64,000 nt of DNA, from contig DQPL01000021.1 of assembly GCA_015664885.1 (NCBI GenBank), positions 1-64,000 on the forward strand, given 5' to 3'. The notes beneath the pieces were generated by a model that worked only from the letters and a program-made list of their open reading frames with translations, ran no database searches and was not told where the DNA came from. Origin of the DNA: Gemmatimonadota bacterium (lineage in GTDB: Bacteria; Gemmatimonadota; Gemmatimonadetes; Longimicrobiales; Gaopeijiaceae). The translations under genes were made by a program, and so were the position numbers. Positions 44,222 to 60,716 of this stretch are shown here, in pieces. The number at the start of each line of letters is the position of its first letter. Position 1 is the first letter of the stretch.

Positions 44222-46960
44222 CTACTGGCTGGCCTCAGCCAAAGTCCGGGCGATCTCTTCGATGGTGTAGCACTCGATGACATCTCCGACCTTGATGTCG
44301 TTGAAGTTCAGGATGCCGATACCGCACTCGAAGCTCTCCCGGACCTCCTTGACGTCGTCCTTGAAACGCTTCAGTGACGAGATCTCACCGTCGTAGACCA
44401 CGATGCCGTCACGGATCAAACGCCCGTGTCCCTTGCGATCGATACGGCCTTCGATGACATAACAACCAGCAATGGTCCCAACCTTGCTGACCCTGAATAT
44501 CTCTCGCACCTCCGCAGTGCCCTCGATGGTCTCCCGCCTCTCGGGCGCGAGCAGTCCCTCGAGCGCCGCGGTCACCTCGGCGACCGCCTCGTAGATGATG
44601 TCGTAGGTGCGGATGTCCACATCTTTCCGCTCCGCCTCGAGTCGCGCCGAAGTCTGCGGCCGCACGCCCAGACCTATGATGACCGCGCCCGACGCCTGTG
44701 CCAGCAACACATCGGACTCATTGATCGCACCAACCGCGCGGTGAATGATCTCGACCTTCACTTCGTCGGTACCGAGCTGCTCGAGCGAATCGGAAAGCGC
44801 CTGCACGGAGCCGTCCACATCGCCCTTGATGACGAGCGGAAGCGTCGAGGCCTTGCCCTCCGCAGCCAGCGCACCGAAGTCACCGAGCTTGACTCCGCGC
44901 TCACGAATGCGTAGCTGCTTCTCGCGGTCGAGCCGCTGCCGGTCCGTTGCGATCTCAGCTGCCTTGACCGCTTCCATGGCCTGGAAGAGGTCACCCGCCT
45001 GCGGCACACCGCCGGCGCCCAGAACCTGAACCGGCGTGGCCGGCCCGACCTCTTCGACGTTCTGACCGCGCTCGTCGAGCAGAGCTCGCACCCGGCCGTC
45101 ATACAGGCCGCATATGAACGAGTCCCCAACGCGTAGCGTGCCGGCCTGCACGAGCACGGTAACCATCGGACCCTTACCGATATCCAGCTGAGCCTCGATC
45201 ACCGTGCCCTGCGCAGCACGATTCGGGTTGGCCTTCAGTTCGAGCATTTCGGCCTGAAGCAGCACTTTGTCCAATAGGTCGTCCACACCCTCGCCCGTCT
45301 TCGCCGAGAGCTCCGCGGATAGCACGTCACCCCCGAAGTCTTCCACATTGATGGCGTGCTGGAGCAGCTGTTGCTTGACCCGAGCGGGATCGGACGCAGG
45401 CAGGTCAACCTTGTTGATGGCCACCACGATCGGCACGCCAGCGTTCTTCGCGTGACTGATCGCCTCGATGGTCTGAGGCATCACCGAGTCGTCCGCCGCG
45501 ACGATCAGCACGACGATGTCGGTGACGTCGGCGCCGCGCGCGCGCATCGCGGTGAAGGCGGCATGCCCCGGAGTGTCGAGGAAGCTGATGCTGCGGCCGC
45601 CGCCGATGTCGACATGATAGGCGCCGATGTGCTGTGTGATTCCGCCCGCCTCTCCCGCCACCACGTTCGTGGACCGGATGCGGTCGAGCAGAAGCGTCTT
45701 TCCATGATCGACGTGGCCCATCACGGTCACGACGGGGGGCCGTGGCAAGAGGTCTTCCGGGGCGTCCTGCACGACCGCAAGCTCCGGCCCCGCCACGTAC
45801 GCTTCTTCCCGAACCGCGGTGTAGTTGAACTCTTCCAGCAGCATCTCGATCTGGTCGAAGTCGAGGCGTTGGTTGATCGTGACGAGCAACCCGAGGCTCT
45901 TGAAGGCAGAGCCGATGATGTCCGTGGAGGTCACGTCGACGAGCTCGGCGAGCTCGGCGACTGTCAGGAACTCGTTAACGCGTACGGTTGTGCGCTCCCG
46001 CTCCACCTCCTCCCTCTGCAGCTCTTCCTTGGCCTCTACCTCCTGCGCTGAAAGCCTCCCCTTCTTACGACGGCGCTTCTTACCACCACCTTTTATTTCC
46101 GCCATGACCCGCTGGATGTTGGACTGTACCGCGTCCTTGTCCACGCGTTGGCGTTTCCCCTTTTTGCCTCGGTCCTTGCCCGCGCGCCGACCGTCGGGGG
46201 TGTACCCTTCTGCCTGGATCCGTACTTGGCCACCCGGACCGGCACTCGCGGCGGGTGCTGGACTCGGCCTACGAATCGTCCGCACCGGCCCATCAGGCGC
46301 ACCCGCACGGGCCGGTGATGGGGGCGGCGCGGCCGCGGCCGCCGGCTCCGACTCCAGAACGAACGCCTCTTCGGCGCCGGAACTTTGCTCAGCGCCTTCC
46401 GCCGCAGCGTCGTCGGCAACAGCAGCATCGCGGTCCGTGTCCTCCGAGGCGTCGTCGCCCTTCAATGGCGCGTCGGCGGCGGCCATCGGAGCGCCATCGT
46501 CGCCGACGACGGAGGTATCCGTCGAGGCGTCCTCATCGTCCGCGGCGGCGTCGCGGGCCGTCTCGATGGCGGCCCCAGCCGGGGTGTCGTCGTCGGTGGA
46601 CTCGTCCGCGGCGGCCGCAACCTGGTCGTCCTTCGCCTCGTCTCCGGTCAGCCCCGACTCGGTACCATCGACCGACTGCTCGGTCTCTTCGGGCTCCGAC
46701 TCGACCACGTTCGCTTTTCGGCGCCGGCGACGACGCTTGGTAGGCGATGGCGCAGCCTCTTCAAGGGCGGCTTGGATCGCCACCGCTGGATCGCCGCCTG
46801 TTGCCCGCCGCTCACGCTCAACTTTCGCAAGCACCTTGTCATGTTGACCAGCGGTGATCATCGCGTCCCTGTCCGCCACGGGAATCCCCATTTGGCGAAG
46901 CAAGGAAACGAGCGCCTTGGCATCGACGCTGAGTTCCTTCGCTAACTCGATAACCCGCAT
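44222..46960 (-). CDS. infB: Translation initiation factor IF-2
   Basis: A 912-residue GTPase that places initiator tRNA on the 30S subunit. The N-terminal IF2-N domain ([25 protein letters not shown]) is followed by a long low-complexity acidic/Ala/Pro region (about 75-240) and a basic [13 protein letters not shown] stretch. The G domain follows with [16 protein letters not shown] and [10 protein letters not shown], then domains II, III and the initiator-tRNA-binding C2 domain ([20 protein letters not shown]). Length and order are normal. Confidence 0.97.
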
Positions 46961-46968
46961 TCTGTTCG

Positions 46969-47307
46969 CTAATCCTCCACTTCGCGTGCGACCGCATCGT
47001 TCAGATCTTGAAGCAGCCGTGTGGCGAGCGATTCATCCGTGACCGCTAACGCTGCAACCGGAGCCTTCCCAATGGCAGCACCCAACGTGGCTCGATCCCC
47101 CAGGATAACCTGAGGGATCGGCCGGTTGCTCAATTCCTTCCGTATTTTATCCAACTGGACGCGCGAAGCGTCCCCAGCCATCAAAACCAACCGGGCCTCT
47201 CCTCGACGGATCGCCCGGCGGGTGGCATCCGTACCCGGAGCTACCGCACCGGCCCGTCGGGCCAGGCCCAGCAATCGGAAGACCTCAGGCCTCCCCTTCC
47301 CCTTCAA
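46969..47307 (-). CDS. L7Ae/YlxQ-like RNA-binding protein
   Basis: A 112-residue L7Ae/S12e-fold protein with RLLGLARRAGAVAPGT, RRAIRRGEARLVLMAGDAS and the C-terminal LATRLLQDLN. These bind kink-turn RNA. Two TTG starts are possible. TTG 47307 is preceded by a perfect AGGAGGT with 5-base spacing and overlaps nusA by 23 bases. TTG 47274 has only GAGG before it. YlxQ normally follows ylxR (DUF448), but no ylxR lies between this gene and nusA. Confidence 0.82.
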   Translation of the reverse strand: MKGKGRPEVFRLLGLARRAGAVAPGTDATRRAIRRGEARLVLMAGDASRVQLDKIRKELSNRPIPQVILGDRATLGAAIGKAPVAALAVTDESLATRLLQDLNDAVAREVED

Positions 47308-48769
47308 GTGGGACCTCCTCCGACACCTCCACGTCCGGGGCGTCGTCCCCCGGCACCTCCGCGTCCGAAGTGTCGTCCGCAGCGTCTGCCGCGACCTCAT
47401 TTTCGCCGGCAGCCTCGGCGCCTTCCTCCGCTGCCGACTCGTCCTCACTGTCCGCCCCTTCGGCGGCACCGACCTCGCCTTCGATCACTGTCAACTCGTC
47501 GATGAGCTGAAGAAGACGGTCTGCATCCTTCTCCCCGAGACCCTCGATCCCGAGGAAATCCCGGCGGTCTAAGTCGATGACCTGCAGAAAAGTATCATAC
47601 CCAGCCGCAGATAGAGCCGCCAGTGTGGCCGCCTGTAGATCCAGCTCAGAAAGCGGGAAATCCGCAGTCTCGTACTCGTCTTCCTCGCTCGCCTTGAAGA
47701 GCGAGAGGTCAGCCCCGCGCTCGAGCCATTCGCGCGAGCCGTACAGGTCGATCTGCCACCCGATCAGTTGCGACGCGAGCCGCACATTCTGGCCGTTCCG
47801 GCCGATTGCAAGCGAGAGCTGGTCCTCACCCACGATCGCCGTAATCACTTGACGCTCGGTGTCGCTCACGACCTTGGAAACCCGCGCGGGCGCCAACGCT
47901 CGCCGAGCGTACACCTCGGTGTCGGGATGCCAAGGCACGATATCGATCCGCTCTCCACCCAGCTCGGAAACGACAGCCTGCACGCGCGAGCCCTTGAGTC
48001 CCACACATGCCCCCACCGGATCCACCGACTCATCCCGGCTGTACACCGCGATCTTGGTCCGGCCACCCACTTCGCGGGCGATGCCACGGATCTCGACGAT
48101 GCCCTGGTGGATCTCCGGGACCTCGAGCTTGAAGAGCGCGGAAACAAAGAGAGGATCCCCCCGGGACAGAATGAGTCGCGGGCCCCTCGGTGTCTCCTCG
48201 ACCTTCTTGAGTACCGCTCGGATGGGGTCACCTTGGCGGAACCGTTCGCGCGGATTCTGGTCCTTCCACGGGATGATCGCGTCGGCGTCACGCGCACGAT
48301 TGAGCATGACGACGAGCTTTCCGCGCTCCGTCTGCTGGACCTCACCGGAGAGCAGTTCACCCACCTCGCCCTCAAACTCGTCCCGGATTCGGTCGCGCTC
48401 GTTTTCCCGAACGCGCTGCTCGATCCGCTGCTTCACCGCCATGACGGCGTTGCGACCGAACTCGGTGAAGTCGACGGGAATCTCCATGACATCACCGACC
48501 TCGAAACCATCGTCGTCCCAGCGGGCCTCTTCAAGTGCGATCTCGGTTGCCGGGTCTTCGACCTCAGCCACCACCCGGCGCAGTACCACGATGTCGAACT
48601 CGCCGGTCGTGTCGTCGATTTCGATTTCGGCCTGCACCGTCGCTCCGTATATACGCGCCAACCCCGCGAGCATGCCGTCCTTTACCAGGTCCGTCATCTC
48701 TTCCTCGGTGAGGCTCTTGGTAGCCGCCACGTCCCTAAACGCCGCTACGATCTGCGCCGCATTCGCCAT
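47285..48769 (-). CDS. nusA: Transcription termination/antitermination protein NusA
   Basis: A 494-residue NusA with N-terminal RNAP-binding domain (about 1-130), S1 domain (LLSGEVQQTERGKLVVMLN), and two KH domains (DPVGACVGLKGSRVQAVVSELGGERID and SLAIGRNGQNVRLASQLIGW). A helix-hairpin-helix-like C-terminal segment (RDFLGIEGLGEKDADRL) and an acidic Ala/Glu-rich tail follow. The ATG at 48769 begins the conserved N-terminus. It is 10 bases downstream of rimP. Confidence 0.97.
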   Translation of the reverse strand: MANAAQIVAAFRDVAATKSLTEEEMTDLVKDGMLAGLARIYGATVQAEIEIDDTTGEFDIVVLRRVVAEVEDPATEIALEEARWDDDGFEVGDVMEIPVDFTEFGRNAVMAVKQRIEQRVRENERDRIRDEFEGEVGELLSGEVQQTERGKLVVMLNRARDADAIIPWKDQNPRERFRQGDPIRAVLKKVEETPRGPRLILSRGDPLFVSALFKLEVPEIHQGIVEIRGIAREVGGRTKIAVYSRDESVDPVGACVGLKGSRVQAVVSELGGERIDIVPWHPDTEVYARRALAPARVSKVVSDTERQVITAIVGEDQLSLAIGRNGQNVRLASQLIGWQIDLYGSREWLERGADLSLFKASEEDEYETADFPLSELDLQAATLAALSAAGYDTFLQVIDLDRRDFLGIEGLGEKDADRLLQLIDELTVIEGEVGAAEGADSEDESAAEEGAEAAGENEVAADAADDTSDAEVPGDDAPDVEVSEEVPLEGEGEA

Positions 48770-48779
48770 GTCTAGTTCC

Positions 48780-49271
48780 TCACTTCCACGTGAAGACCAA
48801 GTGGGCGTCCCGAATCTTCGACCGCGGGACGACCACTTCATCACCGTCGGCGAGCCGCAAGCGAATCGCCTCTGACTGCCCTGCACTTCCGGCGAGCCCG
48901 AGCAACTCTCCCTCGAGTCGGTGCGACCGACCCGCGAGCACCTCGCGACCCTTGATCACCACTCTCTCACCGCTGAAGCGATCGAAATCCCGCGCCTTCT
49001 TCAGCGGCCGCTCAACGCCCGGAGAGGAAACCTCGAGCACGTAACGCTCCGAGAGCGCCTCGTGCTCGTCCAACCGTGCTTCGAGCGCTCGGCTCACCTT
49101 CGCACAATCGCCCACAGTCACTCCGTTCTCCGGGCTCGAATCCTCGCGATCGATGCGAATGCGGAGAACCGGCCGTCGACCACTTCCTCCCCACCGAACA
49201 TCGACGAGCTCGAAACCGAGGTCTTCGACCTCGCTCTCGAGGACCCGCTCGACATCGGCAACTGCGTGCAT
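48780..49271 (-). CDS. rimP: Ribosome maturation factor RimP
   Basis: A 163-residue RimP needed for 30S maturation. It has DLGFELVDVRWGGSGRRPVLRIRIDRE, the CAKVSRALEARLDE helix, LEVSSPGVERPLKKARDFDRF and a C-terminal Sm-like domain. I chose the ATG at 49271 because GGAG lies 8 bases upstream; a TTG at 49289 in the same frame adds six residues. It is the first gene of the operon running to rpsO. Confidence 0.95.
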   Translation of the reverse strand: MHAVADVERVLESEVEDLGFELVDVRWGGSGRRPVLRIRIDREDSSPENGVTVGDCAKVSRALEARLDEHEALSERYVLEVSSPGVERPLKKARDFDRFSGERVVIKGREVLAGRSHRLEGELLGLAGSAGQSEAIRLRLADGDEVVVPRSKIRDAHLVFTWK

Positions 49272-49291
49272 AGAGCCCGCTCCAATCAATA

Positions 49292-49319
49292 GGGGTACAC
49301 CGCAAGAGCGACGTACCCC
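49292..49319 (-). promoter_or_regulatory. Leader hairpin before rimP
   Basis: GGGGTAC (49292-49298) pairs with GTACCCC (49313-49319) around a 14-base loop. It sits about 20 bases from the rimP start. With the terminator-like hairpin at 49344-49363 it forms a structured leader that could regulate the operon. Confidence 0.45.
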
Positions 49320-49335
49320 CCAAACACACTCCGAA

Positions 49336-49363
49336 CAAAAAAGCGGGGGCGACCTGCTCCCCC
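49336..49363 (-). terminator. Terminator-like hairpin in the rimP leader
   Basis: On the minus strand GGGGGAGCAGGTCGCCCCC (49345-49363) is followed by GC and six T. It is downstream of the candidate rimP promoter, so it would act as an attenuator rather than as the end of the upstream gene. Confidence 0.6.
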
Positions 49364-49409
49364 ACTTCAGAAAAAAGTAGGACCGCCCGGTGGCGGCCCG
49401 TCCAACGCT

Positions 49410-49457
49410 ACAATATAAACAAGGCCCGAAACGCGCTCAAGGTCGGCGCTTCGGGCC
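49410..49457 (-). terminator. Terminator of the acidic helical protein gene
   Basis: An 8-bp stem, GGCCCGAA with TTCGGGCC (49423-49430 and 49450-49457), has a 19-base loop, then TTGTTTATATTG on the minus strand. It is 23 bases after the stop of the upstream gene. Confidence 0.6.
49412..49440 (-). promoter_or_regulatory. Candidate sigma-70 promoter for the rimP-nusA-infB operon
   Basis: TTGAGC (49435-49440) and TATATT (49412-49417) are spaced 17 bases apart on the minus strand. Four of six and five of six bases match the consensus. It overlaps the terminator of the upstream acidic-protein gene and lies about 140 bases before rimP. Confidence 0.5.
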
Positions 49458-49480
49458 ACCGCTGCAATCGGGGAAAACCC

Positions 49481-50044
49481 CTAGTCGGAACGCTCCTGAG
49501 CATCGGGCGTCCCCCCAGCAGACGTCTGCTCAGCCTCAGGGGTCTCCTCAGCTTGGGACGTCTGCGCCTTAGGGGCCTCCTCAGCTTGGGACGCCTGCTC
49601 AGCGTCGGACGCCCCCTCAGCCTCTTTGCTTTCTTCCGCATCAGCCGCGGCTCCGTCGTCCGCGGCCGAAGCGGGCACGTCCTCAGTGGCTTCTGCAACG
49701 TCGCCGTCTTCAGCCGCCTTCCCGAAGCCGAGGTGGTCCTCCAGTGCGGCTACCCGGGTCTTGATGACGTCAACCACGCTCCCGAGGCCATCGAATTCCT
49801 TTTGCGTAACGAAGTCGATCCGATCCTTCGCCTCTTCGGCTGCAGCCTGCGCCTTGTCGAGCGCTTCTCTCATGAGCTCACGAGCCCGCTCGGTCGAAAG
49901 ATCGCCCTTCTCCTTGGCGTCTTGGATCGTCTCTTCCAAAGCCTCCTTGAACGCGGAGAGCACCCCGATGCCTTGCTTGATGCCGTCGGAGACTCGTTCC
50001 TTCGCGCCCCGCTTTTCTTCCTCGCCCTTCTTTTCCTCGGTCAT
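49481..50044 (-). CDS. Acidic helical protein, phasin-like
   Basis: 187 residues. The N-terminal half is helical and mixed-charge (RVSDGIKQGIGVLSAFKEALEETIQDAKEKG, then LMREALDKAQAAAEEAKDRIDFVT). It resembles phasins and related coiled-coil proteins. The second half is an Ala/Glu/Asp/Ser/Gln low-complexity tail that includes a repeated QAEEAPK/QAEETPE pattern. No enzymatic motif is seen. It has its own terminator and lies between murA and the rimP operon. Polyhydroxyalkanoate-granule binding is only a possibility. Confidence 0.6.
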   Translation of the reverse strand: MTEEKKGEEEKRGAKERVSDGIKQGIGVLSAFKEALEETIQDAKEKGDLSTERARELMREALDKAQAAAEEAKDRIDFVTQKEFDGLGSVVDVIKTRVAALEDHLGFGKAAEDGDVAEATEDVPASAADDGAAADAEESKEAEGASDAEQASQAEEAPKAQTSQAEETPEAEQTSAGGTPDAQERSD

Positions 50045-50111
50045 CGTGCGTCCTCTGCTCCACTCGTGAGTTGCTGCCTCTGCGCCCTAGGGCGCCCAGT
50101 TGGCACTCGAT

Positions 50112-51401
50112 TCAACCGTCCGACTCCTCCGTACGCTCAATGCGCGCGCCCAATCCGGCCAGCCGCTCGTCGATGGCCTCGTAGCCTCGTTCGATCTGCC
50201 GGATGTTGCGGATCTTGCTGGTCCCGTGCGCTCCGAGCGCCGCTATGAGCAATGCCATGCCCGCGCGGATGTCCGGACTCTCGAGCACCCCTGGCTGGAG
50301 GGGAGTCGGTCCGACGATCACCGCGCGATGAGGGTCGCACAAGATGATCGACGCTCCCATCGCGACCAGCTTGTCGGTGAAGTACATGCGTGATTCGAAC
50401 ATCTTCTCGTGAATGAGCACAGTGCCCTCGCACTGCGTCGCGACAACGACGGCGATCGACGTGAGGTCCGCGGGAAACGCAGGCCACGGGCCGTCATCGA
50501 ACTTGGGCACGTGGCCAAACGCATCCTGCCGGATCTTATGTCGCCCAGACCCGTGTACATGCAAATCCGAGCCCTCCACGGTGCATTCGATGCCGAGGCG
50601 CCGAAACCCCAGCAGTGTGGAGTCGAGATGCTCGAGCGGCGCCCCTTCGATGGTAATATCGCTACCGGTCACCGCGGCGAGGCCTATGAACGAACCGGTC
50701 TCGATGTGGTCGGCGCCGATCGTGTACTCGGTACCGTGTAGAGCCTGCACACCTTCGATTTCTAGAATGTGGGTACCAATGCCCTTGATTCGCGCACCCA
50801 TGGCGTTCAGCAAGTGACAGAGGTCCTGGACGTGGGGCTCTGAAGCCCCATTGCGAATTCGAGTGTGACCTTCGGCACGGACCGCGGCCATGATCGCGTT
50901 CTCGGTACCCGTCACCGACGGCTCGTCCAGAAACATGTCCGCCCCGAGCAACCGCTTAGCGGAGATGGTGAATCCACCGTTCAAGGTCACCTCGGCACCC
51001 AACGCCTCGAACGCGAGAAAGTGGGTGTCCATCCTCCGCCGCCCGATCACGTCGCCGCCGGGAGGCGGGAGCTCTACGTGGCCAAACCGCGCAAGCAGCG
51101 GCCCCGCCAGCAAGAGCGACGCACGGATCCGTTCGGCGAGCACGCGATCCACAGAATTCGTGTGCACTGACGAAGCGTCGATGGTTACATCGTTGGCACC
51201 ATCCCAGCCTACCTCCGCCCCCAGCGACTCGATGATCTCCAGAAACGTGAGCACATCCCGAATCCGCGGGATGTTGTGCAGGGTCACCGGTTCCGACGCA
51301 AGCACCGTGGCAGCCAGGCAGGGTAAAGCGGCGTTCTTGTTGCCGGCGGGGCGAATCCGGCCTTGGAGCCGGTGGCTGCCTTCGACCAAAAAAGTCCCCA
51401 T
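50112..51401 (-). CDS. murA: UDP-N-acetylglucosamine 1-carboxyvinyltransferase, Cys-to-Asp variant
   Basis: A 429-residue MurA, the first committed step of peptidoglycan synthesis (enolpyruvyl transfer from PEP). The UDP-GlcNAc site motif PAGNKNA (Lys22) and the inside-out barrel repeats are normal, and the end IRNIRQIERGYEAIDERLAGLGA is typical. The flexible loop reads PPGGDVIGRRRMD. Asp117 occupies the position of the catalytic and fosfomycin-alkylated Cys115 of E. coli. This substitution is known in Mycobacterium, Chlamydia and Borrelia and makes the enzyme fosfomycin-insensitive. The ATG at 51401 starts at the conserved N-terminus. Confidence 0.94.
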   Translation of the reverse strand: MGTFLVEGSHRLQGRIRPAGNKNAALPCLAATVLASEPVTLHNIPRIRDVLTFLEIIESLGAEVGWDGANDVTIDASSVHTNSVDRVLAERIRASLLLAGPLLARFGHVELPPPGGDVIGRRRMDTHFLAFEALGAEVTLNGGFTISAKRLLGADMFLDEPSVTGTENAIMAAVRAEGHTRIRNGASEPHVQDLCHLLNAMGARIKGIGTHILEIEGVQALHGTEYTIGADHIETGSFIGLAAVTGSDITIEGAPLEHLDSTLLGFRRLGIECTVEGSDLHVHGSGRHKIRQDAFGHVPKFDDGPWPAFPADLTSIAVVVATQCEGTVLIHEKMFESRMYFTDKLVAMGASIILCDPHRAVIVGPTPLQPGVLESPDIRAGMALLIAALGAHGTSKIRNIRQIERGYEAIDERLAGLGARIERTEESDG

Positions 51402-51596
51402 GGTCTCCGAGAAACGGGGTGGTGGTGGGGTCGGGCGGCCTCGAAGATACCGCTCGTCTCCACTCAGCAGCAACTGAGTCATGCGCCCTCCTCTTCTGGA
51501 CGCACATGAGCAATGCATGATGCATGCCCGCCAGCTTGCTCCGGGTCGCCGACCGATCTAACATCGCCCAGTCCTTCGGTTTTCTACCGGTCAGCT

Positions 51597-52058
51597 ATGC
51601 GCCTCAGAGAGTTTCTTCGATCAGATTTCGTCGTCCTACGCCTTGAAGCGAACGACATCGACGGGGTAGTCGAGGAGGTATGCGCTTGCGCGGCGGCAGC
51701 GGGGATCGGCGACGCGGAGGTCATCGCCGACAAGCTGCTGGAGCGCGAACGCGCCCACTCGACGGTGATCGGTTCCGGCCTCGCGATTCCGCACGCCACG
51801 GTCCCAGGCTTGGCAGAACCAGTGATCGGTGTCGCCATCGCCGGGAAGCCAATCGACTACGGACCGCCCGGCACCGACCCTGTGCGCTTGTTCTTCGTTC
51901 TGCTTTCGCCGCCTGGAAGAGAACGCGAGCATGTGAAGCTATTGGCGCGTATATGCCGCCTCGCGCGACACGACGACTTCATCGACGAGCTGCAGTCTGC
52001 CCATGACGATGCATCGGTGATCCGGAGTATCGAATCGGTCGACGACCGGCACGTATGA
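51597..52058 (+). CDS. PTS EIIA (fructose/nitrogen type)-like regulatory protein
   Basis: A 153-residue EIIA-2 domain protein. The phosphorylatable His66 lies in GSGLAIPHATVPGL, and the LFFVLLSPPGREREHVKLLARICRLARHDDF segment is typical of PtsN/FruA-type IIA. The ATG at 51597 starts at the domain; an upstream extension is less likely. No EIIB, EIIC, HPr or EI gene is nearby, so a regulatory rather than a sugar-transport role is likely. It overlaps the next gene by 4 bases and is divergent from murA with a 195-base gap. Confidence 0.87.
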   Translation: MRLREFLRSDFVVLRLEANDIDGVVEEVCACAAAAGIGDAEVIADKLLERERAHSTVIGSGLAIPHATVPGLAEPVIGVAIAGKPIDYGPPGTDPVRLFFVLLSPPGREREHVKLLARICRLARHDDFIDELQSAHDDASVIRSIESVDDRHV

Positions 52059-52429
52059 CGACGGACGGTAGCAAACGGCTGCTCGTCGCGATCATCAACG
52101 ACCCCGACACGATCGACGAGATCCTGTCAGGCTTCATCGAGCTCGGGATCACTGGTGCGACCATCCTCAATAGCGAAGGCATGGGGAGCGTGTTGTCCCA
52201 CGACATCCCCATCTTTGCGGGCCTTCAGACCTTGATCAGCGGATCTCGTCCACAAAATCGGATGATCTTCTCGGTCCTTCCGGCCTCGTTGGTCGACTCG
52301 GCCGTCGAGCTGCTCCAGGAGATTTCGGGGGACCTGGAGAAGCCCGCGACAGGCATCGTGTTCACGCTTCCGGTGGATCGTGTCGAGGGGTTGGCGCCAG
52401 AGTTGGGCGGCGAGGGCAACCCGATCTGA
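52055..52429 (+). CDS. PII-like signalling protein
   Basis: A 124-residue protein whose pattern matches the PII/CutA1 ferredoxin-like fold: KRLLVAIINDPDTIDEILSGFIELGITGATIL, SHDIPIFAGLQTLISGSRPQNRMIFSVL and GIVFTLPVDRVEGL. It lacks the T-loop tyrosine site of GlnB. It is placed between an EIIA-like gene and a cation antiporter with 4-base overlaps on both sides, which suggests a small-molecule or EIIA-dependent regulator of the antiporter. Ligand and target are inferred. Confidence 0.7.
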   Translation: MTTDGSKRLLVAIINDPDTIDEILSGFIELGITGATILNSEGMGSVLSHDIPIFAGLQTLISGSRPQNRMIFSVLPASLVDSAVELLQEISGDLEKPATGIVFTLPVDRVEGLAPELGGEGNPI

Positions 52430-53724
52430 AACCCCTGGTCGGCGCTCTCGTCATCATCGTTGTCGCCCTCGTGGGCGCGCGCTTCACCTTCTCGAGGCAG
52501 CGCACCCCGTTGGGACCGCGGCTGCTGTTTCGGACCGGCACGCACTTCTTGATTGTCGGCTTCTTGATCGGCCCCGCCGGTCTCGGGCTAGTCACCGAGC
52601 AGGCAACCGGCCAACTCTTGCCGTTCCTCGCACTGGGGCTAGGGTGGGTCGGCTTCCAGTTCGGTCTCCAACTCGACCGAGAGAACCTACGACTTTTCGC
52701 TGCCTCCTATCACGCGCTGGCGATTGGGCAGGCTGCCATCACGTTCGCTCTGTTCTTCGGGGTGGGCTGGACGATCTTGACGATCGCCGGCCTAACAGAT
52801 CGCGTGGCGCACCTGTTGCTGCTCGGCGCCGCAAGCACGGCAGCGGTTACCGCCCCTGCCGGTATCGCTATGGTATCGTCGAACTTCATGGTGAAGGGAC
52901 ATGTGCGGGACCTCTTGTTCTTCGTCGCGTCCGTCGACGCAGTGTTCGGTATCTTCGCCTTGCAGGTCACCTACTCTCTCTACCGCCACGACTCGGTGAC
53001 CGCGGACGCAGGTCTCCTCGCCCAACTCGGCTTCTTCCTAGCCGTGGCGCTCGGTCTGGGCATTCTTTGCGGCATCATCTTTCTCTGGCTGGTTCGGGTG
53101 CGGCCGGCCGCCGAAGAGCTCGTGCTGTACCTCTTGGGCATCTGCGCGTTCGCCGCCGGCGCCGCGTTGCAGTGGGGACTCTCGCCGTTATTCGTCTCGA
53201 TGGTCATGGGCGCGATGGTCGCCAACATGGGCCGTCGTAGGCAGCGCGTCTCCGCCGTTTTGAGGCGATGGGAGAAGCCCGTCTACGTGACGTTCTTGCT
53301 GCTAGCGGGGGCGCTGCTCCAAATCCCGAGCTGGTGGGTACTGCCGCTGGCGATGGCGTACGCGCTGCTGCGCTTCGCGAGCAAGGCGGTCGCAGCCGCA
53401 ACCATGGTCTCGCTGCTGCCCTTCGACATGGACGTTCCGAAGCGACTCGGGCTGGGCCTCATCCCACAGGGCGGGATTTCGCTCGCCATGGCGGTGTCCG
53501 GAGTGCTACTGTACTCGGACCTTCAGATTCGGGGACTCGAAGCCGAGGCGACACTTCTCGCTGTGATCGTGATCGGCGTCATGCTTTCTGAGATTACGGG
53601 ACCATTCTTGACGATCCGAGTCCTACGCCGCGCTGGCGAAATCTCCCTCCAGGTCGAACAAGCGATCGCAGAGGGGGACACGAGCAAAGCACGCCTAGCA
53701 GCGTTCCCGCCTCGGAGCGGTTAG
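52426..53724 (+). CDS. Cation/proton antiporter (CPA2-like), apparent CTG start
   Basis: About 432 residues with 11-13 membrane helices. The CPA-type segments are FLIGPAGLGLVTEQATGQLLPFLALGLGWVGFQFGLQLD, AASTAAVTAPAG, GAMVANMGRR and GLIPQGGISLAMA. These proteins exchange Na+ or K+ for H+. The first helix (LVGALVIIVVALVGARF) begins before the only conventional start (GTG 52471). Upstream there is no ATG, GTG or TTG in frame. A CTG at 52426 overlaps the preceding TGA as CTGA, with GAGGG upstream, so this is the proposed start. Confidence 0.85.
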   Translation: MKPLVGALVIIVVALVGARFTFSRQRTPLGPRLLFRTGTHFLIVGFLIGPAGLGLVTEQATGQLLPFLALGLGWVGFQFGLQLDRENLRLFAASYHALAIGQAAITFALFFGVGWTILTIAGLTDRVAHLLLLGAASTAAVTAPAGIAMVSSNFMVKGHVRDLLFFVASVDAVFGIFALQVTYSLYRHDSVTADAGLLAQLGFFLAVALGLGILCGIIFLWLVRVRPAAEELVLYLLGICAFAAGAALQWGLSPLFVSMVMGAMVANMGRRRQRVSAVLRRWEKPVYVTFLLLAGALLQIPSWWVLPLAMAYALLRFASKAVAAATMVSLLPFDMDVPKRLGLGLIPQGGISLAMAVSGVLLYSDLQIRGLEAEATLLAVIVIGVMLSEITGPFLTIRVLRRAGEISLQVEQAIAEGDTSKARLAAFPPRSG

Positions 53725-53732
53725 ACTAAAAG

Positions 53733-54377
53733 ATGAGACTGCTGCTCGCGCCCATTCCGCTCCAGAGTTCCCTCCCGGCCGGTGACAGCCTCGCGATCGC
53801 CGCCGATATCGCGATGATCGTGGTCGGTGTGGCGATCGTGATCCTGGCGTTCGCCGGCGTGATGCTCGCGCGCAAGATCAATCGCACGTTGGACGGAGTA
53901 CGTACCGCGGTGGGCCAGAACCTCGGACCCGTGTCAGATCGGGCGCGCGCCATCTCAGACAACGTCGAGTTCATCTCTCATGCGTTGCGCACCGATGTGG
54001 AGCGGCTGAACGCCTCGGTGCACGCACTGAGCGACCGACTCCATCAGGCTTCCGGTCGCATGGAGGAGCGCATCGAAGACTTCAACGCGCTTATGGAAGT
54101 CGTTCAGGAGGAGGCCGAGGGCATGTTCATCGATACCGCGGCAACCATGCGCGGCCTCCGCGAGGGTGCGGCCGCAATCACGCGTGCCGCCGCGACGCCC
54201 GCGGTCGAAAGCGACCAGCGGGACGAGGCCACGCACGAGGCCGATGAGGGAGACGACGTCTTCCTCGAAGCCGAGGCCCCTGAGGAGCCCGACCACCCCG
54301 ACGGCGACTCGGACGCGGCCGACAAGGCGCGGCAGCTCGCGGCCGAGCGGGAGGCGCTGCCTACACCGGAGGGCTGA
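53733..54377 (+). CDS. DUF948-like membrane-anchored coiled-coil protein
   Basis: 214 residues. After a short N-terminus a single membrane helix lies at about 24-46 (IAADIAMIVVGVAIVILAFAG). A helical region follows with ARAISDNVEFISHALRTDVERLNASVHALSDRLHQASGRMEE, similar to DUF948/methyl-accepting-type coiled coils. The C-terminal tail is acidic and disordered. It is 8 bases after the antiporter stop, so it belongs to the same operon. Function is unknown. Confidence 0.7.
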   Translation: MRLLLAPIPLQSSLPAGDSLAIAADIAMIVVGVAIVILAFAGVMLARKINRTLDGVRTAVGQNLGPVSDRARAISDNVEFISHALRTDVERLNASVHALSDRLHQASGRMEERIEDFNALMEVVQEEAEGMFIDTAATMRGLREGAAAITRAAATPAVESDQRDEATHEADEGDDVFLEAEAPEEPDHPDGDSDAADKARQLAAEREALPTPEG

Positions 54378-54394
54378 GTCTCATCGGCAGTCTC

Positions 54395-55357
54395 ATGGCC
54401 GCGCTCCTCGTCGCTCTCGCATGGCTCCTCTTGCTTCCCCACCCGGCAGCCGCCTGGGGTCCCGCCACGCACGTCGCGCTGGGTCAGGTGGTACTCGGTG
54501 CTCTCTACCTGGTACCGCCAGCGATCCGGGTGCTGCTCGAGCGCTACCCTCTTGACTTCCTTTACGGCTCGATCGCCGCCGACATCTCCTTCGCGAAGAA
54601 ATACGTTCCGGAGGGTCGGCATTGCCACAACTGGGCAATCGGCGAGGAGATTCTCGAAGCCGCCGGTACGGACCGGCTGCGGGCGGTCGGCTACGGCTAC
54701 CTGGCCCACCTCGCGGCCGACACGATCGCGCACAATATCTTCGTGCCGCGTCAACTTTTGCTCACCAGCACGACCAAAACACTCGGTCACGCCTACTGGG
54801 AACACAGGATGGACCTGCATGTGGGGGACGAATTCCTCAGGCAGGCCCGAGTGCTGGTCATCGAAAACGACCATTCCGACGCAGACGAGCTCCTCGACGA
54901 TGTGTTGAGCCGCACGATCTTCAGCTTCAAGGCCAATCGGAAGATCTTCCGAGGGATGATTCGCCTCACGGGCGATGAACGATGGCAGCGAGTCTTCGGG
55001 CAGGTAGTCGCCAAGTCGCGCTTCGATCTCCCCAACTCCGTGGTCGATCGCTACTTCGAACTCGCCTTCGAGCAAGTGATCGACTACCTGACCGCCCGGG
55101 CCGATTCGGGTGCCGCCCAGCTGGATCCGGTCGGAGAGCTGAATCTCAAGCTGGCCAAGAAGGTGCGCCGGCGGGCGCTATCAGATCACTCGGTGGACCA
55201 GCCTGGCGTGCTGACCGAGATGGCTGATGCCTTCTTTCCCTTCCCGGATGGCTCACCCCGTTTTTGGCCAGAGGTCCGCGACCCCGCGTTCAAAGCCGGC
55301 GTGAGTGCGCACCAATCAGAGTCGTCCCGGGATCCAGGCGCACTCGGCCAATCATAA
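54395..55357 (+). CDS. Exported zinc-dependent phospholipase C-like protein
   Basis: A 320-residue protein with a signal peptide (LLVALAWLLLLPHPAAA, cleavage before WGP). The mature Trp plus conserved His/Asp positions are those of the zinc-dependent phospholipase C family: THVALG, GSIAADISF, HCHNW, YLAHLAADTIAHNIFVPRQ and HAYWEHRMDL. These enzymes bind three zinc ions and hydrolyse phosphodiester bonds. It is probably periplasmic. It is the last gene of the plus-strand operon and converges on gatB. Confidence 0.85.
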   Translation: MAALLVALAWLLLLPHPAAAWGPATHVALGQVVLGALYLVPPAIRVLLERYPLDFLYGSIAADISFAKKYVPEGRHCHNWAIGEEILEAAGTDRLRAVGYGYLAHLAADTIAHNIFVPRQLLLTSTTKTLGHAYWEHRMDLHVGDEFLRQARVLVIENDHSDADELLDDVLSRTIFSFKANRKIFRGMIRLTGDERWQRVFGQVVAKSRFDLPNSVVDRYFELAFEQVIDYLTARADSGAAQLDPVGELNLKLAKKVRRRALSDHSVDQPGVLTEMADAFFPFPDGSPRFWPEVRDPAFKAGVSAHQSESSRDPGALGQS

Positions 55358-55364
55358 GCCGACC

Positions 55365-56792
55365 CTAGCTGAGCCGTTCCACCAGAAGCTCATTCACGCG
55401 TCGCGGGTCAGCCTGGCCCTGAGACCGACGCATGACCTGGCCAACCAGGAATCCCAACACCCTGGTCTCGCCTGATCTGTACCGCGCCACCTCGTCGGGG
55501 CTCTCTGCCACCACCGCCTCCACCCATTCGGCGAGGCGACCATCGTCACGCACCTGCAGCAACCCTTTGGACTCGATGATCTCCATCGCTTCTCCGCCTC
55601 CGTCGGCCATGAAGCCCAGCACCTTCTTCGCGGCAGAATCGGAGACCGTACCGTCCTGGACTAGCGCGATCAGCCGGGCAAGTGACTCGGGTCGCACAGG
55701 CACGTCGCGCGCGTCATCACCGCGCTCGTTAATGAGCGCTTGAAGCGCGCCCATGACCCAGTTCGATGCGGTCTTGGTATTCGCGCCAGCCCCGACGACC
55801 CCTTCGAAGTAATCGGCGGTGGCGGCGGATTGCGTCAGGACCTCGGCGTCGTACGCGGGCAAGGAATAGTCAGCCTCCAGGCGTGCCTTCCGGGCGCGAG
55901 GTAGCTCGGGCAACGCGCGCCTGGCGGCTTCGATCTCCGCTGCCGAGACGCTCAATGGCGGCAGGTCCGGCTCGGGGAAGTACCGGTAATCGTGACTCTC
56001 TTCTTTGGAACGCATGGACCGTACTTCGCCCCGGTGGTCGTCCCAGAGCAAGCTCTCCTGCTCAATGGTGCCGCCCTGCTCCAGCACGTCGATCTGGCGA
56101 GCGATTTCAATGTCGAGCGCGCGTTCGATGCCCGAGAACGAATTGACGTTCTTGATCTCGGTCTTGGTGCCGAGCGTCTCGCTTCCCCGGCGTCGCACCG
56201 AGACGTTGGCATCCGCCCGCAGACTGCCCTCTTCCATGTTGCAGTCGCTCACGTCTATGTACTCGAGCGTACGCTTCAGAGTCCCAAGGAAGGCCCGCAC
56301 GTCAGCGGGAGTGCGCAGGTCGGGTTCCGTAACCACTTCCACGAGAGGTGTACCCGCGCGATTGAGGTCGACCGCGGTTGACCCCGGCACGCGGTCGTGC
56401 AACGACTTGCCCGCGTCCTCCTCCATGTGGATGCGACGAATCCGGACAGAGCCCTCCCCTTCCGGTCCATCGAAGTCGACGACACCAGCCGTGGCCAACG
56501 GCCGATCGAACTGAGTGATCTGGTACCCCTTGGGAAGATCGGGATAGAAGTAGTTCTTCCGCGACCAGACGCTGCTCTCGTGCACCGTGCAGTCGAGTGC
56601 AAGCGCGGTGCGAACCGCTAGCGCGACCGCCTCGGGGTTCGTGGTCGGCAGCGCACCCGGAAGGCCCAGACAGACCGGACACACGTGCTTATTGGGCTCG
56701 TCTCCGAAGACCGCGGCGTTGCCGCAAAAGAGCTTCGCGGACGTGCGCAACTGGACGTGGATTTCGATCCCGATAACCGGCTCCCACGTCAT
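55365..56792 (-). CDS. gatB: Aspartyl/glutamyl-tRNA amidotransferase subunit B
   Basis: A 475-residue GatB, the ATP-using subunit that activates misacylated Glu-tRNA-Gln or Asp-tRNA-Asn. Signatures are [55 protein letters not shown] and the C-terminal YqeY-like domain with [19 protein letters not shown]. Two zinc-binding Cys of CPVC are present. It overlaps gatA by 4 bases. Confidence 0.97.
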
Positions 56793-58138
56793 GGTGCGCT
56801 CCCAGCCAACGAGGCTTCCAGCGCGCCGGCGACCGCGAGCATGGCCGACTCATGCCACCACGGTGCAAGCACTTGCCCGCCTACCGGCAGACCGTCGACC
56901 TCGCCTACCGGCACCGACATGGCCGGAATGCCCGCAAGGTTCGCGGTGACCGTGAAGACGTCGGACAAGTACATGGCGAGCGGGTCGTTTGTGTGCTCTC
57001 CAAGCGCAAACGCCGGCGTCGGCGCCGTCGGAGTGAAGAGCACATCCACCTGTTCGAACACGCCGGCAAAGTCCTGAGCGACGAGCGACCGAGCCCGCTG
57101 TGCGGTGCCATAGTATTCGTCGTAATAGCCCGACGAGAGGGCATACGTCCCTAGCATGATGCGTCGCTTCACTTCGTCGCCGAACACAGCGCGAGTCCTT
57201 TCGTACATCGACGCGATGTCCGGCCCGCTCTGGCGAACACCAAAACGAACGCCGTCGAATCGCGCGAGGTTGCTGGAGGCTTCAGCAGGAGCGAGCACGT
57301 AGTACGACGGAATCGCAAAAGAGGTGCTGGGCAGAGAGACGTCCTGGAGTCGCGCGCCTGCGCCCACCAGGCGAGCTAGCGCTTTGTCGATCAACTCCTT
57401 TATCGCGGGGTCGAGAGCCTCCGGGAAATACTCCGCCGGGACGCCAACCACCATGCCCTCGACTCCCCTTCCCACGTCACTGGTGAAGTCCGGCACCGGG
57501 GTGTCGGCGCTGGTCGCGTCGCGGGGGTCGTGGCCGGCGATCACGCCGAGCAGGGTGGCGGCGTCGGAGACGGTCCGGCCGAGCGTGCCGACCTGATCGA
57601 GCGATGACGCAAAAGCCACAAGGCCGTAACGGCTCACGCGCCCGTACGTCGGCTTGATGCCCACGACCCCACAGAACGACGCGGGTTGGCGGACCGATCC
57701 ACCGGTGTCCGAGCCCAGCGCCATCGTGGTGTAACCAGCCGCGACAGCGGCAGCCGAGCCACCAGAGCTCCCCCCCGGCACGCGGGACCGATCGTGCGGA
57801 TTGAGCGTCGGACCGAAGCCCGAGTTCTCCGTGGACGATCCCATTCCGAATTCGTCGAGGTTGGTTTTCCCAATCACGACAGCGCCCGCATCTCGCAGCC
57901 TGCGCACCACCGTAGCCTCGTAGGGAGCCTGGTAGCCTTCGAGAAGTCGCGACCCACACGTGGTCGGCAGTCCGGCCGTGGACAGGTTGTCCTTGACCGC
58001 GACCGGAACCCCGGCCAGCCGCCCAACGGCGCGCACATCGAGATCGCCTGGGGTGGCGAGCGCCAGGAACGCATTGAGGCCCTCTGGACCGTCCTCCATC
58101 TGGGTGATGCGATCGAGCGCGGCCCTGGCGTCGCTCAC
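56789..58138 (-). CDS. gatA: Aspartyl/glutamyl-tRNA amidotransferase subunit A
   Basis: A 449-residue amidase that releases ammonia from glutamine. The Ser-cisSer-Lys triad is in place: Lys49 (VAVKDN), Ser124 in [10 protein letters not shown] and nucleophile Ser148 in SDTGGSVR, with normal spacing of 75 and 24. The start is the GTG at 58138, overlapping the gatC stop as GTGA; the longer open frame is a shadow. Confidence 0.97.
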
Positions 58139-58449
58139 TCCGGCTCCTCCCGGTGCACACCCGGCGGCGGCGGCACCACGAAGAAGTTCTCCCGCCAATC
58201 GGGCGCGAAGGAACCGAGTGGTCGAGTGAGGGCATCGGGCTCCTCGACTGACGCGGCTCGGGTCGCTGGCAGCGGGGAGCGGATCTGCGGCGTGAGATCC
58301 GACGTCTCGGCCAGGTCGAGAGAAGTCAGTTGATCGACGTGCCCGAGAATTCCGTTGAGCTCCGATGTGAGCCGCTCCAGCTCTTCCTCTGCGAGCTCCA
58401 GCCGGGCCAACGCGGCAATCTTCACAACGTCCGCGTGGGTGACGCTCAC
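58135..58449 (-). CDS. gatC: Aspartyl/glutamyl-tRNA amidotransferase subunit C
   Basis: A 104-residue GatC, which wraps around GatA and GatB and stabilises the complex. It has [33 protein letters not shown] and the Asp-Leu-Thr-Pro region ETSDLTP. The GTG start overlaps the pcrA stop as GTGA, so gatCAB is coupled to the helicase gene. Confidence 0.95.
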
Positions 58450-60716
58450 GGCCAGCCCTTCTCGAGAGACGCGTAGCGTACCAGCAGCTTCTTCTGTCCG
58501 ATGTCGTCGAAGTCGATTGTGACCTTGAGATCTCGCCCGAAACCCGTGATCTCAACCACTGCACCGGACCCGAACGTCTGATGCACAACACGTTCGCCCT
58601 TCACGAAGCGCGGCAAGTCCTGGTTCATGGCCTCGTCCAGGTCGGGCTCGAACGTAGTGTCGAACGACTTGCGGCCCTCGGACCGCGGCCGGCCTCTATG
58701 GGGCGTGGAGTGCTGGAGTCGCGTCAGGCGCTCGCTGCGTCGGCGGTCGAGCAGCTCATCCGGCACGGCGTCCACGAAAGTCGAGAGGGTACCGTATGTG
58801 AAATCGCCGGCGCGCCTGCGCTGCCGCGCCCACGACAGCGACAACTTGTCCTCCGCGCGCGTGATTCCGACGTAGAAGAGACGTCTCTCCTCCTCGATGG
58901 CATCGGCCTCGTCGTAGGCTCGGCTGAGCGGAAAGAGGCCTTCCTCGAGCCCCGCGATGAACACCACGGGAAACTCCAGGCCTTTTGCGTTGTGCAGGGT
59001 CATGAGCGTCGCGGTCGCCGCGTCGGGGTCGAGACGATCCACATCCGCTACCAGCGCCACTTGCTGCAAGAACAAGTCGAGCTCAGTGAAGGTGTCGAGC
59101 TCGCCCTCGTCCATCCCCTTCATGAGCATGCCGTCGAAGTCAAGCGCTCCCGCAATGAGCTCCGCGACGTTTCGAGTTCGATCCTCTCCGTCGGGTCCTT
59201 CGTCATAGAGATGGCGCACGAGGTCGAGGTCCTCGACCAGCTTCTCCAAGAGTTCTCCGATCGTCGCTTGCGTGGCGCGTAGGCTGAAGCGCTGAATGAG
59301 GTCCGCGAAGCGCATGAGTCCGTTAGCGCCCGCTGCCCTGACGTCGGGAATCTCGTCCGCGCGAGCCGATGCCTCGAGCAGGGTCAGCCCCTGCTCCGCG
59401 GCCCAGCGCGCCATGTGCTCCTGTGTCGTCAACCCGACAGCCCGGCGCGGGTAGTTCACGACCCGGCCAAAGGCTACAGCGTCCTTCGGGTTCGAGATCA
59501 GCCGCAAATAGGCAAGTACGTCCTGGATTTCACGGCGCTCGTAGAAACGCACACCGCCCACTACCTGATAAGGCACACCCTCTCGACGGAACGCGTCTTC
59601 GAGCGCTCGGGCTTGCGCATTGGTGCGGTACAGCACGGCGCAGCCGTTGTATGAGAGACCGGGCGTTTCACGGATACGTGTCTCGATCTCCCCGACGATC
59701 CAACGGGCCTCGTCGCTTTCGTCGAAGGTTTCGACGAGCGTGATTTTCTCCCCACCAGTGCGGTCCGTTCGCAGCGTTTTGTCGGGACGGTTCACGTTCT
59801 CGACGATGACCGCGTTGGCCGCATCGAGAATACGCTCGCTGGAGCGGTAGTTGACCTCCAGCGCTACCACGAGTGCGCCGGGGAACGCAACTTCGAAGTC
59901 CAGAATGTTCCTGATGTCCGCGCCACGCCAGGCGTAGATGGACTGGTCCGGGTCGCCCACGACCATGAGGTTCTCGTGACCCTGGGCGAGCAGTTCCACG
60001 AAACGGAACTGCGCCCGGTTCGTGTCCTGATACTCATCCACGAGGATGAAGGAAAAGCGCTCGCGGTAGCGGTCCAGCAAGTCCGGATAGTCCTCGAAGA
60101 GCTGCACAGGCTTCATGAGCAGGTCGTCGAAATCGAACGCGTTCTGGTCCTTGAGGGCCCTCTGATACTCCGTGAAAACGCTTCCCACGTTACGCAGGAA
60201 CAGATCGAAGGAACCCTCCGTGTCCTTTGCGAACGTATCGCCGTCGACGAGCTGGTTCTTGGCGTTGCTGATCTCGGCGCGTATCGCCTTGGGGCTCCAC
60301 CGCTTGGGGTCGAGCCCTATCGAGTCCTGAACGTTCTTCACGAGGCGAAGCGACTGGTCCGAATCGAAGATGCTGAAAGAACGTTCCCAGCCCAGCCGAT
60401 CCGCGTGGCGGCGGAGCAGGCGCGCGCCGACCGAATGAAATGTTCCCACCCACATGCCCGAGGGCTCCGCGCCGAGCAGCCGCGTGATCCTGTCTCGCAT
60501 CTCGCCGGCGGCTTTGTTGGTGAACGTTACCGCCAAGATCCGGTCCGGAGGCACGCCGTGCTCGCTTATCAAGTGGCTGACACGGGCCGTCAGAACCCGC
60601 GTCTTCCCCGAGCCGGCACCAGCCAGCACGAGCAACGGACCCTCGAAGTGCGACGCAGCCTCTAGCTGCTCTGGATTGAGTCCCGCGAGATATTCCGGCA
60701 CCTGCAGATCAGGCAT
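58446..60716 (-). CDS. pcrA: UvrD/PcrA-type DNA helicase
   Basis: A 756-residue superfamily 1A helicase (3'-5'). It has Walker A GAGSGKT (33-39), [24 protein letters not shown], the DEYQDTN Walker [15 protein letters not shown], the [10 protein letters not shown] motif, [27 protein letters not shown] and [10 protein letters not shown]. The C-terminal tudor-like segment ([21 protein letters not shown]) is present, as in PcrA. It acts in repair and plasmid replication. The ATG at 60716 overlaps the histidine-kinase stop by 8 bases. Confidence 0.94.

Follow-up and report, generated by a model that had tools for sequence, protein, structure and literature searches.

Switching of transporters is known for PII-fold proteins and, separately, for EIIA proteins: GlnK acts on AmtB and SbtB acts on SbtA, and among the EIIA proteins, EIIAGlc acts on LacY (PMC10710835). 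A further precedent is that of E. coli EIIANtr and TrkA (Lee 2007, as cited in PMC9239096). The known PII-transporter pairs are apparently restricted to transporters that are able to act as trimers (PMC10710835). At the locus described here, the joint action of an EIIA and a PII protein would be the new element. The initial annotation of this DNA could not match the combination to a described system, and we likewise found no description of an EIIA/PII/antiporter module in the open-access literature, nor an account there of EIIA and PII as one unit or of a Na+/H+ or K+/H+ antiporter controlled by a PII protein; this result covers open-access papers, so novelty is unproven. The findings presented here point to the module as an undescribed tie between ion balance and the energy state of the cell.

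The window, which is the whole stretch of 64,000 nucleotides that was analyzed, contained three plus-strand genes at 51597-53724 in the order EIIA-PII-exchanger, and murA was their divergent neighbor (tblastn/hmm synteny):

50112..51518, - strand: murA
51597..52058, + strand: EIIA (PTS_EIIA_2, Fru/Ntr type), ATG at 51597, 153 aa; codon of the predicted acceptor His66 at 51792-51794
52055..52429, + strand: PII-like protein (PF00543), ATG at 52055, 124 aa
52426..53724, + strand: CPA-superfamily cation/proton exchanger (PF00999), about 432 aa from an inferred CTG start

The three genes had been annotated as having 4-base overlaps. The overlap between the EIIA stop codon and the PII start codon (ATGA) was confirmed, and the overlap between the PII and exchanger genes (CTGA) requires CTG 52426 as the start codon of the exchanger, whose first common start codon (ATG, GTG, or TTG) was GTG 52471. 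The CTG start is plausible because aligned exchanger homologues have a Met at the position of this codon and because GAGGG is located 9 nt upstream of it. When 12 loci and positions 45000-60000 of the window were searched against Rfam for RNA control elements, including a c-di-AMP riboswitch, no match was obtained.

The locus resembles glnK-amtB in that a PII-fold protein is encoded beside a transporter, and by analogy, gating by direct binding is likely. In contrast to GlnK-AmtB, the partner here is an antiporter rather than an ammonium channel, an EIIA frequently accompanies the PII protein, and the PII branch lacks the UTase Tyr51 and the GlnB B-loop lysine. SbtB, like the protein described here, is a PII-like protein outside nitrogen control that is paired with an ion-coupled transporter; however, SbtA is a Na+-coupled bicarbonate transporter of a different family, and we know of no EIIA partner for SbtB. 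PtsN shares with our EIIA the features of a free EIIA that has an acceptor His and is tied to K+/cation homeostasis, but PtsN acts on K+ uptake (TrkA) and a sensor kinase (KdpD), whereas the EIIA described here is in an operon with, or fused to, a PII protein and is located beside antiporters. To our knowledge, PtsN has no PII partner.

The initial annotation described the first gene product as a phosphoryl-accepting EIIA with His66, and this description agrees with the PF00359 match (E 2e-28, 99.5 bits versus a cut-off of 27), with the position of His66 in the sequence AIPHAT, and with an alignment in which this predicted acceptor was kept in 49 of 50 EIIA loci. In the remaining locus (L047, the same gene type as L009), a Tyr replaced His66 beside an intact PII and exchanger. 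The profile match and the acceptor His place the protein among PTS EIIA proteins of the Fru/Ntr fold. Its nearest solved relatives were PtsN proteins, and its score against the PtsN/EIIANtr equivalog TIGR01419 was 56.9 bits versus a cut-off of 138.7.

The genes for EI and HPr were found together on contig C8 of the host genome, near genes for a mannose-family EIIC and EIID; a phosphate donor for EIIA is therefore available. The host genome contained two further EIIA_2 domains, one that resembles PtsN and lies 8 kb from EI/HPr (L002) and another on contig C95 (L003). None of the EI, HPr, and other EIIA_2 sequences that we searched for in the host genome was inside the window, which for these three families bears out the earlier remark that no other PTS genes were nearby. 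EI and HPr were present in 15/15 genomes tested in the Gemmatimonadota set, and EI was present in 9/10 distant hosts.

The second gene product had been described as a PII-fold sensor. It matched PF00543 with 31.2 bits (cut-off 25), and its AF2 model (pLDDT 82) gave GlnK2 as the best fold match (Z 13.1, 95 residues, rmsd 3.4); hence, the protein has the P-II profile and the ferredoxin-like double beta-alpha-beta fold of the PII superfamily, and the sensing role is predicted. Conservation within this PII branch was strongest in the base of the T-loop and the T-loop itself (GATIxxSEGMGRxLSxDxPIFAGL) and in the B-loop Gly. The features that define GlnB/GlnK, namely, the B-loop TGxxGDGK, Gln39/Lys58, and the uridylylated Tyr51, were absent in an alignment to GlnB and in the family alignment. 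Specifically, GlnB Lys90 in the B-loop was replaced by Ile/Leu101 and Gln39 was replaced by Val/Leu46, and Lys58 and Tyr51 were unconserved. GlnB Arg101 and Arg103 appeared to be replaced by Gly and Ala, at positions extrapolated beyond the end of the alignment. The equivalents of GlnB Thr29, Gly35, and Gly89 were retained (T36, G42, and G100). As judged from these substitutions, the branch has lost the GlnB ligand and uridylylation residues. Lys90, Arg101, and Arg103 of GlnB hold the nucleotide phosphates; because all three were replaced, the pocket may have kept its adenine side and lost its triphosphate side.

PstA/DarA was the other PII-like protein to which the branch could be compared. 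The model matched the PstA fold (Z 12), and Thr36, Leu38, and Gly42 aligned with T28, L30, and G34 of the PstA/DarA motif TKLxxxGGFLxxGNTT (PMC4316997). However, GGFL and Asn41 of this motif were missing. The branch had TIxxSEGMGRxLSxD, a long T-loop, and a short B-loop, unlike the short T'-loop and long B'-loop of PstA/DarA. A c-di-AMP cyclase gene was present in 21/21 genomes tested, which argues only weakly for c-di-AMP as the ligand because 11/14 controls carried the gene too; with the PstA motif also missing, c-di-AMP is a weak candidate. The PII-like protein BB0017 of Borrelia was rejected as a family member because it is a DUF2179 membrane protein.

The third gene product matched PF00999 with 65 bits, and its AF2 model (pLDDT 85) matched NapA (Z 33.0), MjNhaP1 (Z 32.0), and KefC (Z 24). 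A sequence search against the PDB gave no match for the exchanger, and its placement comes from the fold search. The Na_H_Exchanger profile and the NapA/NhaP-type fold put the protein in the CPA antiporter superfamily. Of the first description, a CPA2-like exchanger, the exchanger part stood. The narrower CPA2 label is tentative, since the match to NapA (CPA2) was about as good as that to MjNhaP1 (CPA1) and the TM5 motif was S(V/L/I)D, not DD, QD, or ND; CPA2 is marked by a DD or QD ion-site pair in TM5. Asp171 in TM5 (codon 52936-52938) and Lys320 in TM10 were invariant in 13/13 aligned close homologues, and the exchanger had no cytoplasmic RCK/TrkA domain.

To place the locus among its relatives, we used a sample of 98 related genomes in which an exchanger with >500 bits was counted as a close homologue. 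The PII gene was present in 33/98 genomes and adjoined murA in nearly every fetched locus. Thirteen genomes carried a close exchanger homologue, the gene for which adjoined the PII gene in every case and was never found apart from it. An EIIA gene adjoined the PII gene in 13 of the 33 PII-bearing relatives (one EIIA copy was frameshifted), and the complete triple was present in 11. Many Gemmatimonadota kept the PII gene beside murA without an EIIA or exchanger gene; thus, the triple is not obligatory, and the gene arrangements indicate that PII must have some role that is independent of linked EIIA and exchanger genes. In the genomes with PII alone, a general EIIA encoded elsewhere may serve as the partner (matches of about 100 bits were found there).

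A CN_hydrolase gene followed the PII or exchanger gene in nine Gemmatimonadota loci (L050, L052, L054, L056, L057, L058, L083, L092, and L114), and in five of the nine, it was followed by a NadE-like gene, which was named by reading and had no Pfam match. In a Calditrichaeota locus (L112), a CN-hydrolase protein resembling NAD synthetase was encoded divergently to EIIA-PII. A link between the PII protein and NAD synthesis is possible.

Scanning genome contigs for the PII protein yielded 296 relatives. Of the named ones, those closest to the gene were in Gemmatimonadota MAGs, and the best 80 of the 296 were in Gemmatimonadota, Acidobacteria, Aminicenantes, Nitrospirota, Spirochaetes, Sumerlaeota, Calditrichaeota, and others. 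The EIIA-PII-exchanger order was also found in Acidobacteria and Aminicenantes, where another exchanger gene usually followed the first. In five of these loci (L093, L097, L101, L102, and L103), the first tandem exchanger lacked the TM5 Asp (S, N, T, or G at this position) and the second had it in a KD motif, as if the two were a dead and a live antiporter. Both tandem exchangers retained the TM5 Asp in L095; the exchanger scored in L098 and L099 was the first copy only, and it lacked the TM5 Asp.

The link between EIIA and PII was examined in whole-genome samples of spirochetes and Acidobacteriota that were selected without regard to EIIA, with E < 1e-10 and >50 bits defining a strong PII match. 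EIIA was adjacent or fused at 19/19 strong PII matches (11/11 and 8/8). Weaker PII matches in these two samples had no EIIA alongside and are probably members of different PII branches. EIIA and PII formed a single ORF of 272-278 aa in five spirochete loci (L126/L157, L127, L131/L158, L132/L161, and L133, with L161 judged by its near-identity to L158), each beside a CPA-type exchanger gene; the loci L131 and L132 were near-copies. The PII halves of the fusions matched the family profile with E values of 2e-13 to 2e-20 and are divergent, as most of them were missed by the Pfam P-II model. The fusions fell in two places on the PII tree; the resolution of this tree was poor, as the protein is short.

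PII-EIIA genes were also located directly upstream of genes for multi-subunit Mrp antiporters in spirochetes and in an Aerophobetes MAG. The products encoded downstream matched MnhE, MrpF, MnhG, MnhB, and a Mrp/NuoL-type antiporter subunit. The pair preceded mrpE-F-G-B-D in L119 and mrpE-F(-G) in L121 and L107 (Pfam) and in L123 and L124 (profile search). In one locus (L111), EIIA-PII directly followed a gene for a CNNM/CorC-type transporter with CBS domains; this may be a third type of ion transporter to which the pair is linked.

We scored 97 PII loci, including that of the window; many were from close relatives and are not independent, and some contigs ended near the pair. EIIA, PII, and a CPA exchanger occurred together in 40 of the 97, EIIA and PII with Mrp in 6, and an EIIA-PII fusion with a CPA exchanger in 5. 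EIIA and PII without an antiporter accounted for 14 loci and PII with neither EIIA nor an antiporter adjoining for 30, some of both at contig ends, and 2 loci had only PII and an exchanger. These labels were clustered on the PII tree (19 changes versus 49 in shuffles). Together, the full triples, the 13/13 exchangers beside PII, and the 19/19 strong PII matches with EIIA show that the three genes do not co-occur rarely.

The same EIIA-PII pair was attached to two unrelated antiporter families, CPA and Mrp, which provides strong evidence, at the level of gene arrangement, for a role of the pair in controlling cation/proton exchange. The initial annotation had proposed an antiporter regulated by phosphorylation state and a small-molecule signal; cross-phylum co-occurrence, EIIA-PII fusions beside exchangers, and the pair leading Mrp operons all support such putative control. 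We therefore favor, with a probability of roughly two-thirds, the idea that EIIA and PII are the two parts of a cytoplasmic regulator encoded in an operon with its target, the cation/proton exchanger. With somewhat less confidence, and only a little above even odds, we propose that EIIA and the new PII branch are one widespread regulator of CPA and Mrp antiporters that couples Na+/K+/pH to PEP status and the PII ligand. Several findings count against control of the antiporter by the pair, namely, the 30/97 PII loci with neither EIIA nor an antiporter, the 14/97 with EIIA but no antiporter, and the one locus with Tyr in place of His66. The first two groups suggest that there are other uses for the pair or for PII by itself.

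For the trimer, the EIIA-PII contact, the docking and its sign, the ion, and the ligand, we infer a scheme in which EIIA would be phosphorylated from PEP via EI and HPr encoded elsewhere, and the state of His66 would report the balance between PEP and pyruvate (energy/carbon). The PII-like protein, which presumably forms a trimer as other PII proteins do, would bind EIIA when EIIA is in one of its phosphorylation states, and it would probably also bind a small ligand; it would add a ligand signal and be the part that contacts the antiporter. The EIIA-PII assembly would dock on the cytoplasmic face of the antiporter and alter its turnover. The effect would most likely be inhibition in one of the states, by analogy with GlnK on AmtB and SbtB on SbtA. 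CPA exchangers are dimers, whereas the known PII partners appear to be trimer-capable, so the docking geometry of GlnK-AmtB is not transferable. If this scheme is true, it links the glycolytic energy state directly to the homeostasis of ions and pH in bacteria of several phyla, and the ligand of the new PII branch becomes a testable question. The EIIA-PII fusions offer a single soluble protein for assaying phosphorylation together with ligand binding.

An alternative is that EIIA and PII are a signaling pair whose main target is something other than the antiporter, with which they are merely co-expressed, and that they act in trans on other partners, such as kinases, NAD synthesis, or cell-wall enzymes. 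The stand-alone PII genes beside murA, the EIIA-PII loci without an antiporter, the CN_hydrolase genes (about half with a NadE-like gene), and the NAD synthetase-like protein in Calditrichaeota fit this idea. We consider it unlikely: co-expression hardly explains why the pair is repeatedly linked, in different phyla, to antiporters of two unrelated families, and the close exchanger homologue stays with PII in all relatives that have it. It is much less probable still that PII serves cell-wall synthesis with the divergent murA and that EIIA and the exchanger are passengers. Although murA was the most constant PII neighbor within Gemmatimonadota, it was not beside PII in the Acidobacteria, Aminicenantes, and spirochete loci, where EIIA stays, and the close exchanger homologue occurred only with PII; murA was rejected as a functional partner because it is a neighbor in Gemmatimonadota only. 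Least probable of all is that EIIA belongs to an ordinary sugar PTS with its EIIB/EIIC elsewhere, as the EI, HPr, and mannose-family EIIC/EIID genes on contig C8 might suggest, since a chance grouping of the three genes is excluded by orthologues in the same order across phyla and by the EIIA-PII fusions.

Two further EIIA sequences were observed outside such operons. The EIIA_2 domain on contig C95 (L003, G000:C95:4288-4665) was in a frame of at least 700 aa, the N-terminal part of which resembled an amino-acid/APC permease and the C terminus of which resembled TrkA_C; both were named by reading the sequence. In genome G046, the assembly showed a frameshift in the operonic EIIA (L005), and another EIIA of this type (L162, G046:C22:10693-11148) was found alone on a different contig.
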